The position numbers and the translations under genes are program-made. A stretch of 43,667 nt of DNA from Collimonas antrihumi. GTDB taxonomy: Bacteria > Pseudomonadota > Gammaproteobacteria > Burkholderiales > Burkholderiaceae_D. Shown here piece after piece: positions 10,394 through 28,774 of this stretch. Below the pieces are notes generated by a model. It was given only the letters and a program-made list of their open reading frames with translations. It had not been told where the DNA came from and searched no databases. The DNA lies in the NCBI RefSeq assembly GCF_018304965.1, contig NZ_JAGQED010000033.1, forward strand, positions 1 to 43,667, given 5' to 3'. The stretch's first letter is position 1; every line of letters begins with the position of its first letter.

Positions 10394-10462
10394 CGTCGTC
10401 CCCGCGAACGCGGGGATCCATGTTAAGTACAAAAGTGGATTCCCGCGTTCGCGGGAATGACG
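10394..10462. repeat. Long palindromic repeat, copy 1 (69 bp)
   Basis: Two 27-bp arms (10394-10420 and 10436-10462) in inverted orientation flank a 15-nt centre that begins tgTTA. Each arm contains a CCCGCG-N2-CGCGGG core, so three hairpins are possible. On its right it is followed by one copy of the 14-bp unit (TGACGGGGTCGCCG) that is tandemly repeated at 13212-13323. It lies between fba and purC. Confidence 0.9.
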
Positions 10463-11621: not shown

Positions 11622-11716
11622 CGTCATTCCCGCGCACGCGGGAATCCACCTTAGTTATCGCGCCAATGCCGTAACCTGGATTCCCCACCTTGGTGCCCGC
11701 GTACGCGGGGATGACG
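11622..11716. repeat. Long palindromic repeat, copy 2 (with CACCTTGGTG insert)
   Basis: The left arm (11622-11648) has the core CCCGCG-CA-CGCGGG. The right arm ends at 11716 and is interrupted by the small palindrome CACCTTGGTG (11686-11695). The centre is 28 nt rather than the usual 15 and still begins nnTTA and ends TAAnn. It lies between pyk and fba. Confidence 0.88.
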
Positions 11717-13211: not shown

Positions 13212-13323
13212 CGGGGACCTCGTCTAGGCGACCCCGTCTTGGCGACCCCGTCTCGGCGACCCCGTCTCGGCGACCCCGTCTAGGCGACCCCGTCTAGGCG
13301 ACCCCGTCTAGGCGACCCCGTCA
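13212..13323. repeat. 14-bp tandem array, eight units
   Basis: Seven copies of N-GGCGACCCCGTCT (13226-13323) follow one degenerate copy (13212-13225). The intact units differ almost only in their first base (A, T, C, C, A, A, A). The last unit ends GTCA and runs directly into the first bases of palindrome copy 3, sharing its CGTCA. The array is non-coding, between pyk and pgk. It looks like slippage expansion of a sequence that flanks palindrome copy 1 only once, so its copy number may vary between strains. Confidence 0.92.
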
Positions 13324-13399
13324 TTCCCGCGAACGCGGGAATCCATTTTAGGCTGCAACATGGATTCCCCGCCTTGGTGACCGCGTTCGCGGGGATGAC
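13319..13399. repeat. Long palindromic repeat, copy 3
   Basis: Left arm 13319-13345; 15-nt centre 13346-13360 (ttTTA-N5-cAAca); right arm 13361-13399. The right arm carries the insert CGCCTTGGTGA, a decayed version of the CACCTTGGTG module. It is fused on the left to the 14-bp tandem array and lies between pgk and pyk. Confidence 0.9.
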
Positions 13400-14789: not shown

Positions 14790-14841
14790 CGTCGTTCCCG
14801 CGTACGCGGGCACCAAGGTGCACGCATTCGCGAGGATGACG
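14790..14841. repeat. Palindromic repeat, copy 4 (rearranged)
   Basis: A shortened variant: the left arm with core CCCGCG-TA-CGCGGG joins directly to CACCAAGGTG, then to a decayed right arm (CGCATTCGCGAGGATGACG). The AATCCA edges and the 15-nt centre are missing, so the small CACCAAGGTG palindrome serves as the loop. It lies between pgk and ilvE, 42 nt before the ilvE start. Confidence 0.8.
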
Positions 14842-18228: not shown

Positions 18229-18443
18229 TTAAATAGGGTCAGTCTGACCCCAATGCCGTTCAGTTAAGTGATATGACGTGGCCAGCCGCCACGGCGGCTC
18301 CGTCATCCCCGCGAACGCGGGGATCCAAATTACCGAGTGAAACAATGAAAATGGATTCCCGCGTTCGCGGGAACGACGCATGAGGGAGATATCTCTGGCG
18401 TCTCAGCTGAACAGCATTAGAGTCTGACCCTGACCCTATTTAA
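18229..18443. mobile_element. Composite MITE-like element enclosing a palindrome
   Basis: The outer ends are inverted repeats starting TTAAATAGGGTCAG (18229-18242 and the reverse complement at 18430-18443). Similarity continues inward for about 36 nt to the AATGCCGTTCAG / CTGAACAGCATT pair. The left end holds the perfect dyad GGGTCAG-T-CTGACCC (18236-18250). Palindrome copy 5 sits inside. No transposase is encoded; repeats of the GGGTCAGACCC type are often linked to REP-associated transposases supplied elsewhere, which is an inference here. Confidence 0.7.
18301..18378. repeat. Long palindromic repeat, copy 5
   Basis: Left arm 18301-18326 and right arm 18352-18378, each with the CCCGCG-AA/TT-CGCGGG core, around a longer AT-rich centre of about 24 nt. 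It is nested inside the 18229-18443 composite element. Confidence 0.88.
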
Positions 18444-22961: not shown

Positions 22962-23030
22962 CGTCATTCCCGCGAACGCGGGAATCCAGTTTGCGCTGTA
23001 AGGTGGATCCCCGCGTTCGCGGGGATGACG
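22962..23030. repeat. Long palindromic repeat, copy 6 (69 bp)
   Basis: Arms 22962-22988 and 23004-23030 around a 15-nt centre ending TAAgg. Both cores are intact. It lies between pilA and the FHA gene, beyond the 3' end of the FHA gene. Confidence 0.9.
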
Positions 23031-24916: not shown

Positions 24917-25798
24917 TTACAGCATCGCCTTCAGCAAACGCGCCATTTCCGATGGATTCTTGGTCACGGTGATGCCACACGCTTCCATGATATCCAGCTT
25001 GGCTTGCGCAGTATCTGCACCGCCCGAAATCAAGGCGCCTGCATGGCCCATGCGCTTGCCCGGAGGAGCAGTAACGCCGGCGATGAAGCTGACAACCGGC
25101 TTCTTCATGTTGTCCTTGATCCAGTAAGCAGCATTGGCTTCATCCGGACCGCCGATTTCACCGATCATGATGACGGCATCGGTTTCAGGATCGTCGTTGA
25201 ACATCTTCATGATGTCGATGTGCTTCAAGCCGTTGATAGGATCGCCGCCGATGCCGACTGCCGACGATTGGCCCAGGCCCAGCGCAGTCAATTGACCGAC
25301 TGCTTCATAAGTCAGGGTACCGGAGCGCGAAACCACGCCGATACGGCCCTTCTTGTGGATATGACCTGGCATGATGCCAATCTTGATTTCGTCTGGCGTG
25401 ATCAGACCTGGGCAGTTTGGTCCGAGCAGCAAAGTCTTGCTGCCGGCTTTTGCCATGCGGTCTTTCAATGCCAGCATATCGCGTACTGGAATGCCTTCGG
25501 TGATGCAGATGGCCAGGTCGAGTTCAGCTTCGACGGCTTCCCAGATTGCAGCAGCAGCACCGGCAGGCGGTACGTAGATGACCGATACGTTGGCGCCGGT
25601 GGCGGCCTTGGCTTCGGAAACGTTAGCGAAAATCGGGATGCCTTCGAAATCTTCGCCGGCTTTTTTCGGGTTGACGCCAGCGACAAACGCGTTCTTGCCG
25701 TTTGCATAATCGCGGCAGCCGCGGGTGTGGAATTGACCGGTCTTGCCGGTAATGCCTTGGGTGACGACTTTAGTGTCTTTGTTGATCAGGATACTCAT
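24917..25798 (-). CDS. sucD: Succinyl-CoA synthetase alpha subunit
   Basis: SucD with SucC interconverts succinyl-CoA and succinate with nucleotide triphosphate formation in the TCA cycle. The CoA-binding Rossmann region holds GITGKTGQFHT and GVNPKKAG; LLGPNCPGLITP follows, and the phosphorylated histidine is H252 in KRMGHAGALI. The product is 293 residues from the ATG at 25798. The frame extends upstream only because palindrome sequence translates as MDSRVRGND; this is not real protein. A GIY-YIG gene separates it from sucC. Confidence 0.96.
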   Translation of the reverse strand: MSILINKDTKVVTQGITGKTGQFHTRGCRDYANGKNAFVAGVNPKKAGEDFEGIPIFANVSEAKAATGANVSVIYVPPAGAAAAIWEAVEAELDLAICITEGIPVRDMLALKDRMAKAGSKTLLLGPNCPGLITPDEIKIGIMPGHIHKKGRIGVVSRSGTLTYEAVGQLTALGLGQSSAVGIGGDPINGLKHIDIMKMFNDDPETDAVIMIGEIGGPDEANAAYWIKDNMKKPVVSFIAGVTAPPGKRMGHAGALISGGADTAQAKLDIMEACGITVTKNPSEMARLLKAML

Positions 25799-25815: not shown

Positions 25816-25842
25816 CGTCATTCCCGCGCACGCGGGAATCCA
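25816..25842. repeat. Palindrome arm, copy 7 left
   Basis: A complete 27-bp arm with core CCCGCG-CA-CGCGGG, followed by tgTTAG. The TTA is the stop codon (TAA, minus strand) of the GIY-YIG gene. It pairs with the inverted arm at 26142-26167 across the gene. Confidence 0.92.
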
Positions 25843-25844
25843 TG

Positions 25845-26132
25845 TTAGTTCAATAAACCGGGATATAAATCTTGCCAGTTCGGGTTGGATTGTTCGACCA
25901 AATGAACTTTCCACATCCGATTCCATTTTTTCAGCTGCTTTTCGCGCTTGATTGCCTCGGTGATATCTTCGTGATTCTCATACCAGACCAAGGCTTTCAA
26001 TCCATGTTTCTCGCAAAAACCATCTACAAAAGCTTCTTTGTGCTGCCAGGTGCGCTTAATCAAATCTGAGGTTACGCCTATATATAGCGTGCCTCGCGAC
26101 TTGTTCGACATCATGTAAACGTAGCTGGGCAT
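25845..26132 (-). CDS. Single-domain GIY-YIG endonuclease
   Basis: A 95-residue protein that is one GIY-YIG domain (COG2827-like). The catalytic set is intact: the VYM and LYIG strands (residues 5-7, 17-20), R27, H31, Y51 and E64 in IKREKQLKKW, ending with the family tail NPNWQDLYP. GIY-YIG enzymes cut DNA using a metal and a tyrosine; substrate here is unknown. The gene splits sucC from sucD and sits tightly between two inverted palindrome arms that also bound no other gene in the window. No spaced ribosome-binding site is visible; it probably rides on the sucC transcript. Confidence 0.92.
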   Translation of the reverse strand: MPSYVYMMSNKSRGTLYIGVTSDLIKRTWQHKEAFVDGFCEKHGLKALVWYENHEDITEAIKREKQLKKWNRMWKVHLVEQSNPNWQDLYPGLLN

Positions 26133-26141
26133 TCTGTAAAA

Positions 26142-26167
26142 TGGATTCCCGCGTTCGCGGGAATGAC
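26142..26167. repeat. Palindrome arm, copy 7 right
   Basis: An inverted arm with core CCCGCG-TT-CGCGGG, preceded by TAAaa. It lies 6 nt downstream of the sucC stop codon and 9 nt upstream of the GIY-YIG start. Confidence 0.92.
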
Positions 26168-26173
26168 ATTAGA

Positions 26174-27340
26174 TTATTTACCGTTGGCCGCAGCAACAAC
26201 CTTCTGCGCCGCTTCTTCCATGCTGTCCGCCGAGATGATCGGCAGGCCGGAGTCGGCCAGCATTTTCTTGCCGATTTCTTCGTTGGTGCCCTTCATGCGG
26301 ACTACCAGCGGTACTTGCAGCGAAACGGCTTTGGATGCAGTGATGACGCCTTCGGCGATCACGTCGCAGCGCATGATGCCGCCGAAAATATTGACCAGGA
26401 TGGCTTTCAGGCCTGGGTTCTTCAACATGATCTTGAAGGCTTCAGTCACTTTTTCAGCAGTAGCGCCGCCGCCGACGTCGAGGAAGTTGGCTGGTTCGCC
26501 GCCGAACAGTTTGATGGTGTCCATGGTCGCCATGGCGAGGCCGGCGCCGTTCACCAGGCAGCCGATATTGCCGTCGAGCGAGATGTAAGCCAGGTCGAAC
26601 TTGGACGCTTCGATTTCAGCTGGATCTTCTTCGTCCAGATCGCGGTAAGCGACGATTTCCGGATGACGGAACAGTGCGTTGGAGTCGAAATTGAACTTGG
26701 CGTCCAGTGCGATCACCTTGCCGGAACCTGTAACGATCAGCGGGTTGATTTCAGCCAGCGATGAATCGGTATCCCAGTATGCCTTGTACAGTCCTTGCAA
26801 TTGCTTGCGTGCATCTGCGATAGAACCGGCAGGTACGCCGATCTTGGTCGAGATGCTGTCTGCTTCAGCGTCGGTCAGGCCGGTAGCCGGATCGATGACG
26901 ACTTGATGAATTTTTTCCGGGTGGCTGGCGGCCACTTCTTCGATGTCCATGCCGCCTTCGCTGGATGCCATCAGCACCACGCGTTGGCTGACACGGTCGG
27001 TTACCATACTTACGTACAGTTCTTGTTTGATGTCGGCGCCTTCTTCGATCAGCAGGCGACGTACTTTTTGGCCTTCTGGTCCGGTTTGATGCGTCACCAG
27101 TTGCATGCCCAAGATCTGGTTGGCGTATTCACGCACTTGCTCCAGCGACTTCGCAACTTTAACGCCGCCGCCCTTGCCGCGACCACCAGCGTGGATCTGG
27201 GCTTTTACGACCCAAACCGAACCGCCTAGGGTTTCAGCTGCCTTGACCGCGTCATCGACGCTCAGGCACGGGATGCCACGCGGTGTGGTTACTCCGAACT
27301 GGCGGAGAATTTCTTTACCCTGATACTCATGGATCTTCAT
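26174..27340 (-). CDS. sucC: Succinyl-CoA synthetase beta subunit
   Basis: The ATP-grasp subunit of succinyl-CoA synthetase. The start [36 protein letters not shown], and the C-terminal [30 protein letters not shown] and [17 protein letters not shown] segments are all standard. The length of 388 residues is exactly usual. The gene would normally be followed by sucD within a few bases; here 375 nt with a GIY-YIG gene and two palindrome arms intervene. DUF2889 gene lies 34 nt upstream. Confidence 0.96.
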
Positions 27341-28692: not shown

Positions 28693-28774
28693 CGTCATTC
28701 CCGCGAACGCGGGAATCCATATTAGTCAGTAACATGGATTCCCCACCTTGGTGCCCGCGTTCGCGGGGATGACG
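28693..28774. repeat. Long palindromic repeat, copy 8 (with CACCTTGGTG insert)
   Basis: Left arm 28693-28719, 15-nt centre 28720-28734 reading taTTA-gtcag-TAAca, right arm 28735-28774 containing the CACCTTGGTG palindrome. It lies between recA and recX, where it could act as a partial terminator on the recA-recX transcript. Confidence 0.9.

Follow-up and report, generated by a model that had tools for sequence, protein, structure and literature searches.

We consider it probable that a small GIY-YIG nuclease recognises the CGTC-tagged palindrome beside its gene and forms a cognate pair with it, the gene lying between inverted copies of its own repeat. The case comes from Collimonas antrihumi, from a stretch of 43,667 nt that we call the window (the whole stretch analysed, on contig C26 of a 4.72-Mb genome), and from comparison with genomes of the same taxonomic family and beyond. 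The nuclease-repeat system is real and widespread, and gene and repeat are cognate by association, with exceptions. Movement of the units appears likely.

The nuclease gene and its protein

In the window, the gap between sucC (26174-27340, minus strand) and sucD (24917-25798, minus strand), host genes for succinate-CoA ligase subunits, holds a GIY-YIG nuclease ORF of 95 amino acids (25845-26132 including the stop codon, minus strand), with sucC upstream and sucD downstream of it. Two inverted palindromes bound the ORF: on its downstream side a CGTC-tagged palindrome with a CCA tail (25816-25842, plus strand), which forms an 8-bp hairpin of -8 kcal/mol as DNA, and on its upstream side an inverted copy with the tag outward (26142-26167, minus strand). 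A first-pass annotation of the sequence had described a gene between inverted arms that splits sucC from sucD, and this arrangement is confirmed, the arms it concerned being 25817-25842 (plus) and 26142-26167 (minus). The annotation was also right about both borders: the TTA at the inner edge of one arm is the gene's stop codon TAA read on the opposite strand, and 9 nt separate the other arm, on the upstream side, from the ATG.

The protein belongs to the GIY-YIG superfamily by domain, conserved residues and predicted fold. It matches the Pfam GIY-YIG domain (E 2.3e-12), and in the alignment of the nuclease family Y17, H31 and N83 are invariant and Y6, R27 and E64 are conserved at 90% or more. 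We take these six to be the residues usually named as catalytic in GIY-YIG enzymes, and the catalytic Y, R, H and E that the annotation had called intact all fall in these conserved columns. The AlphaFold model is confident (mean pLDDT 92.9), and its best Foldseek match is the UPF0213 protein 1zg2, the sole match below E 0.001, followed by a second UPF0213 protein and then by Slx1 structures. The single-domain GIY-YIG proteins of UPF0213 (1zg2, 1ywl) are like the window protein in size and are its best structural match, but in sequence they are only distant (E 2.6e-7 for the nuclease family profile). The single window protein gave weak matches only against the sequences of solved structures (best E 0.046), and a search of NCBIfam returned no name for it. 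With a homologue from Neisseria gonorrhoeae it shares 48% identity over 94 aa.

Two other identities were considered for the nuclease and rejected. A phage origin found 0 matches in 50,697 phage records and only weak profiles in PHROGs, mostly of homing endonucleases, and there was no PADLOC match that would make it a defence gene.

Palindromes in the window

The palindromes of the window have the form CGTCATTCCCGCG-NN-CGCGGGAATCCA, with tags pointing outward around the nuclease gene. A search with GTCRYYCCNGCGNNNGCNGGRRYCCA at up to two mismatches gave 14 matches in the window versus 0 in 100 shuffles, while a pattern built on TTACCCGCG gave no match there, the actual arm being GTCATTCCCGCG; a 15th copy, at 13374-13399, was picked up by a looser scan only. 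These 15 copies form seven inverted pairs, each a plus-strand copy followed by a minus-strand copy with tags outward, and one single, diverged palindrome (14791-14816, plus strand). The whole window genome has 167 palindromes at up to two mismatches, versus 0 for a reversed control pattern. In their CGTC tag, 8-bp stem, 4-nt loop and CCA tail, in their copy number and in occurring mostly as inverted pairs, they fit CGTC-1, as described in the available sections of PMC3733652. CGTC-1 repeats are predominantly HH dimers there, and the seven outward-tagged pairs among the 15 window copies may be of the HH or of the TT kind.

Six of the seven pairs are gene-less. The spacer is 15 nt, laid out as 5+5+5, in four of them (10395-10461, 13320-13399, 22963-23029 and 28694-28773), and it is 24 nt and 28 nt in the other two (18302-18377 and 11623-11715, respectively). 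Two details are thus less firm than the first-pass annotation put them, the 5-nt centre of the gene-less copies and the preserved arm edges: by eye, the inner edge nnTTA is present in five of the six pairs and TAAnn in only three. A lone palindrome has a folding energy of about -8 kcal/mol (as DNA), and each of three gene-less pairs examined forms a long hairpin of -29 to -32 kcal/mol, more stable than any of its 200 shuffles.

The right arm is longer in the pairs at 11623-11715, 13320-13399 and 28694-28773, where the right-arm palindromes (11649-11715, 13346-13399 and 28720-28773) carry an extra CCNCCTTGGTG insert; some congeners have a similar form. Right arms bearing CCNCCTTGGTG are a second sub-type of palindrome pair.

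Palindromes around nuclease genes

Flanks were read for all 77 gene loci in the taxonomic family. A palindrome of one of four stem classes lies within 150 nt of the gene at 65 of the 77 loci, and on both sides at 29; arms with outward tags number 45 upstream and 41 downstream. Two of the 12 loci that have no arm under this 150-nt test have palindromes with another loop. At the 30 loci with long flanks, palindrome density is 7.6 per kb at 0-75 nt from the gene, 4.7 at 75-150 nt and 1.1 at 150-300 nt, and farther out it is 0.22 at 300-600 nt, 0.08 at 600-1000 nt and 0 at 1000-1450 nt.

The position of the nuclease gene differs between genera. It lies just upstream of sucD in genera g1, g32 and g9, and upstream of ruvC in g5, g27 and g32; outside the window genome these are putative gene labels, given from short peptide motifs. 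Because the same sites recur in several genera, they are either old shared positions or the result of repeated targeting. The first-pass annotation had reasoned that palindrome-free flanks of homologues, or an identical gene position in all relatives with divergent arms, would mean chance proximity, and the loci show neither.

In three genomes (G163, G142 and G216), palindromes of the same orientation recur regularly in tandem, every 110-230 nt or so, a pattern that would fit amplification of whole units of repeat plus spacer.

A profile search across the phylum found the nuclease family in 110 of 398 genomes, three of them from the window's own taxonomic family. The flank test took the best-scoring 30 loci, minus two of the own family, so its 28 loci are not a random sample, and it required the CGTC tag while leaving the stem sequence free. 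At 20 of these 28 best-scoring loci a CGTC-tagged hairpin lies within 150 nt (on both sides at 11), and in the controls such a hairpin occurs in 6 of 259 windows of 150 nt taken 400-1200 nt away and in 0.9% of dinucleotide-block-shuffled flanks. We also read the flanks of 11 loci picked by hand from 33 records of a plasmid collection. Seven of them have tagged palindromes within 150 nt (L090-L094, L096 and L099, from Neisseria gonorrhoeae, Novosphingobium, Azospirillum, Sinorhizobium, Rhizobium sp. CIAT894, Aeromonas and Sphingobium), and none were found within 150 nt of the homologues from Photobacterium, Planktothrix, Rhizobium tumorigenes and Spirosoma (L095, L097, L098 and L100). The palindromes adjoining the N. 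gonorrhoeae homologue are of the dRS3 type and have their tags inward, i.e., in the opposite orientation.

Gene and repeats are both intergenic in the window, so an intergenic gene might simply have come to lie beside common intergenic repeats. We regard such a coincidence as hardly credible, given the density of arms near the gene compared with that at 600-1450 nt, the tagged hairpins of the phylum sample, and the association of presence and absence across 294 genomes described in the next section.

Co-occurrence of gene and repeat

That nuclease and palindrome belong together was also examined across 294 genomes of the family, in 65 of which the gene was called at E 1e-10 and from 229 of which it was absent. 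Palindromes were counted in every one of these genomes at up to one mismatch, using one pattern for stem class C and one for the other three classes. The median per genome is 93 palindromes in the gene-bearing genomes (n=65) versus 0 in the gene-less ones (n=229), and at least 20 palindromes are present in 57 of the former versus 29 of the latter. The p-values of this association are inflated because genomes share ancestry, for which shuffling within genera corrects in part. The contrast is also seen between close relatives: the window genome has 177 copies by the C-class pattern, and G130, G153 and G061, which the flanking-gene tree places nearest to it among the sampled genomes, are gene-less and have 0, 1 and 4 C-class copies. 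In G083, where internal stops disable the nuclease gene, one palindrome is left.

Most gene-bearing genomes have a single nuclease gene. Eight of the 65 have fewer than 20 palindromes, two of them zero, and these eight include G069 (6 palindromes) and G121 (10), each with several related gene-bearing units. The 29 palindrome-rich gene-less genomes have up to 309 copies. A profile search of them for a missed nuclease homologue found none in 26 and one in three; of 30 palindrome-poor controls, 3 had one by the same search. Gene loss that leaves the repeats behind would explain such genomes. The first-pass annotation had envisaged a nuclease-bearing parent element with internally deleted offspring: its core, that nuclease and palindrome belong together in a logic like that of REP/RAYT, stands, while these palindrome-rich gene-less genomes (29 of 229, with 26 of the 29 lacking a homologue) count against the descent that it proposed.

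One of these genomes, G102, is a single contig with 79 palindromes and no nuclease gene. Together with G208, of the same genus, which has 76 palindromes and likewise no homologue by profile, it offers a natural test of how long the repeats last in the absence of a nuclease gene.

Palindrome-rich genomes without the gene also favour another account, in which a RAYT or other transposase moves the palindromes, with the GIY-YIG gene settled in them as a passenger or parasite. Mobilisation by other transposases was weighed by Di Nocera and colleagues in the part of their paper available (PMC3733652). The stems of the palindromes bear directly on this account.

Stem matching between gene and genome

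Palindrome stems vary (CCCGCG, CCAGCG, CCGGCG, CCTGCG and others). We compared the stem class of the arms with that of the genome at 60 of the 77 loci, taking genome counts after subtracting the arms themselves; the 17 loci left out were the 12 without arms and five in genomes with fewer than 10 copies. The A, G and T classes were counted separately in 60 genomes and set to 0 in the remaining five (four of the window genus, and G014), in which the combined non-C counts are 0 to 5. The stem class of the arms is the commonest class of the genome at 49 of the 60 loci, compared with an expectation of 20.5 on average (maximum 31 in 5000) when all loci are shuffled and 38 (maximum 48 in 5000) when they are shuffled within genus.

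Five of the 11 mismatches are in multi-gene genomes (two in G142, one in G163 and two in G275). In G275, both testable genes have C arms although the T class is commoner. G142 has three nuclease genes with arms of three different classes (T, G and A), and its genome has 195 copies of class T and 111 of class G, the G arm being on one side of its gene only. Class A has only two copies in that genome, at 397251 and 397658, and both flank the gene at 397368-397631. G142 also has 105 C-class copies yet no gene with C arms, which counts against strict one-to-one pairing.

We therefore think it unlikely that another enzyme moves the palindromes: the arm stem tracks the stem class of the genome, within genera too, and the separate genes of G142 go with separate stem classes. 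In addition, according to the available text of PMC3733652, CGTC repeats were not seen to flank transposase genes, save for a few fortuitous associations.

Empty sites and duplicated units

Comparing sucC-sucD junctions between related strains, as the first-pass annotation had advised, revealed the empty sites that it looked for. The gap is 19-20 nt in ten gene-less congeners versus 375-399 nt in four gene-bearing ones (one with a disabled gene), and at sucC-sucD no match was obtained for G217, another gene-less congener and the eleventh. The target duplications that it also had in mind did not appear: none was seen in reading the flanks of these junctions or those of the G069 and G121 copies described below. 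The start of sucD is ATGAGT in the four gene-bearing and ATGTCG in the ten gene-less congeners, a three-base change of a serine codon that marks two haplotypes.

Gene-less pairs vary in presence as well. Each of the six pair sites lacks its pair in some congeners (4 to 12 congener stretches were compared per site). For the sites at 11623, 13320, 22963 and 28694 a pair stands at the corresponding position in one congener or more, and for those at 10395 and 18302 in none of the congeners compared. Flanks at these sites are often rearranged, so they are not clean insertions.

Two genomes hold related gene-bearing units. G069 has two that are 98% identical over 562 nt. Their likeness begins 12 nt beyond the CGTC tag, where a 62-nt inverted repeat has its outer end; farther left the flanks are unrelated, and on the right the likeness ends about 74 nt beyond the other arm. 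This is the best sign of a copied gene-bearing unit, whatever the means of copying. G121 has four diverged gene-bearing copies, one of them decayed. When the three intact copies are compared pairwise, the shared sequence begins right at the tag in two comparisons and 28 nt outside the tag in the third.

In genus g42 (L138, L142, L139, L145 and L149), the downstream arm has on its right a tail of about 70 nt that is similar between these copies, and some left flanks have a common short GGCACAA-type repeat. The unit may there be nested in another repeat family, with an uncertain right edge.

In a tree of 540 nt around the insertion, the window genome groups with the gene-bearing G197 and G083 (0.926), with G186 outside this local grouping. 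That tree differs from the flanking-gene tree, and because the two conflict, the insertion has probably also passed between species. It probably spread in this way by ordinary or homing-like recombination of its flanks. A homing endonuclease would leave an empty target allele and be inherited by conversion of short flanks; the empty sites and the local recombination signal (support about 0.93) may point that way.

This local signal, which joins the window genome with G197 and G083 against the longer tree as if by flank recombination, also suits a reading in which the repeats are not moved at all. The nuclease would then cut incoming or exposed single strands and tune natural transformation, making the pair a modulator of recombination, host-serving or selfish, and the gene would be inherited by recombination between repeats. 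The presence of a single gene in most gene-bearing genomes fits, as does the effect on transformation that the Neisseria nuclease Ssn reportedly has. Against it stand the gene-bearing unit of G069, duplicated at two unrelated sites, the variable presence of gene-less pairs among congeners, and the gene copies of G142 with their different stem classes. We see this as a real possibility, and one from which we lean away.

Proposed mechanism and relation to known systems

A small nuclease, a perfect hairpin and tags that point outward together suggest cutting of a folded single strand beside the tag, in the manner of TnpAREP. We infer recognition and cutting by the nuclease partly from the reported work on Ssn, and cutting as the driver of movement is our conjecture. 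The most likely substrate would be a palindrome folded in single-stranded DNA, whether on the lagging strand or in DNA imported by transformation, which the enzyme would bind and nick beside the CGTC tag. Through such cuts, empty and gene-bearing pairs alike could be copied, or recombined, into new places. GIY-YIG enzymes are not known to leave a covalent enzyme-DNA bond, so the rejoining step would need replication, repair or recombination.

A 2025 paper in Nature Communications reportedly describes Ssn, a family of GIY-YIG enzymes from Neisseria meningitidis whose target for single-strand cutting is a repeat of hundreds of copies. The nuclease is said to alter transformation and to have thousands of homologues, each with its own sequence, and the paper is said to pair such enzymes with cognate repeats already. 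Ssn would resemble the window system as a small GIY-YIG protein with a repeat in hundreds of copies and many homologues with sequences of their own, and it differs in that the Ssn work reportedly stresses single-strand cutting and transformation. The window system, too, appears by association to have a cognate repeat in many copies. The N. gonorrhoeae homologue is presumably Ssn, and the window protein very probably belongs to the Ssn nucleases; if so, the pairing of enzyme and repeat is already known, and we think that it has been published. What our analysis would then add is the link to the CGTC class of REPs, the unit with the gene inside a pair, the statistics on stem matching, the empty junctions and the duplication of a gene-bearing unit.

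REPIN/RAYT systems have many gene-less inverted repeat pairs. The window system is like them in this, in an enzyme gene flanked by its own repeats, and in the co-evolution of enzyme and repeat, which the available part of PMC8266576 reports for TnpAREP, an enzyme that processes single-stranded REPs. It differs in its enzyme, which is a GIY-YIG nuclease and not a Y1 HUH tyrosine transposase, and in its tag, which is CGTC and not GTAG. In the portion of PMC9465073 available, GIY-YIG and RAYT are separate entries of one gene list. Among the papers searched, we found none joining GIY-YIG with CGTC or with 'repetitive extragenic palindromic', and the papers that mention both GIY-YIG and 'repin' are, judging by title, about restriction enzymes.

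CGTC-tagged REPs were defined in 2013 by Di Nocera and colleagues, who equated the Neisseria CGTC-1 with dRS3 and, in the sections available, reported such repeats from five phyla with no known enzyme, describing them as elements that 'seem lacking a dedicated transposase' (PMC3733652). The association with a GIY-YIG gene is where our case differs, the same sections naming no dedicated enzyme (PMC3733652). The meningococcal genome has nearly 700 copies of dRS3, which are insertion sites of two filamentous phages, according to the available part of PMC10745880.

Taken furthest, CGTC REPs, dRS3 included, could be a superfamily of bacterial mobile elements run by a GIY-YIG nuclease and not by a transposase, in which nicking of folded single-stranded repeats leads to empty and gene-bearing pairs being copied to new sites, a second and independent invention of what REPIN/RAYT does. 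We put this forward tentatively, at a little less than an even chance. If movement is confirmed, a GIY-YIG enzyme would be playing the part for short repeats that transposases play elsewhere.

A matching nuclease makes the origin of CGTC-tagged repeats testable at the bench. It would also account for the differences in stem between species, and it offers many natural pairs of enzyme and target. The analysis suggests that a widespread family of bacterial repeats has in this nuclease its missing partner, as the gene and its matching repeat tend to be gained, lost and altered together in related bacteria.
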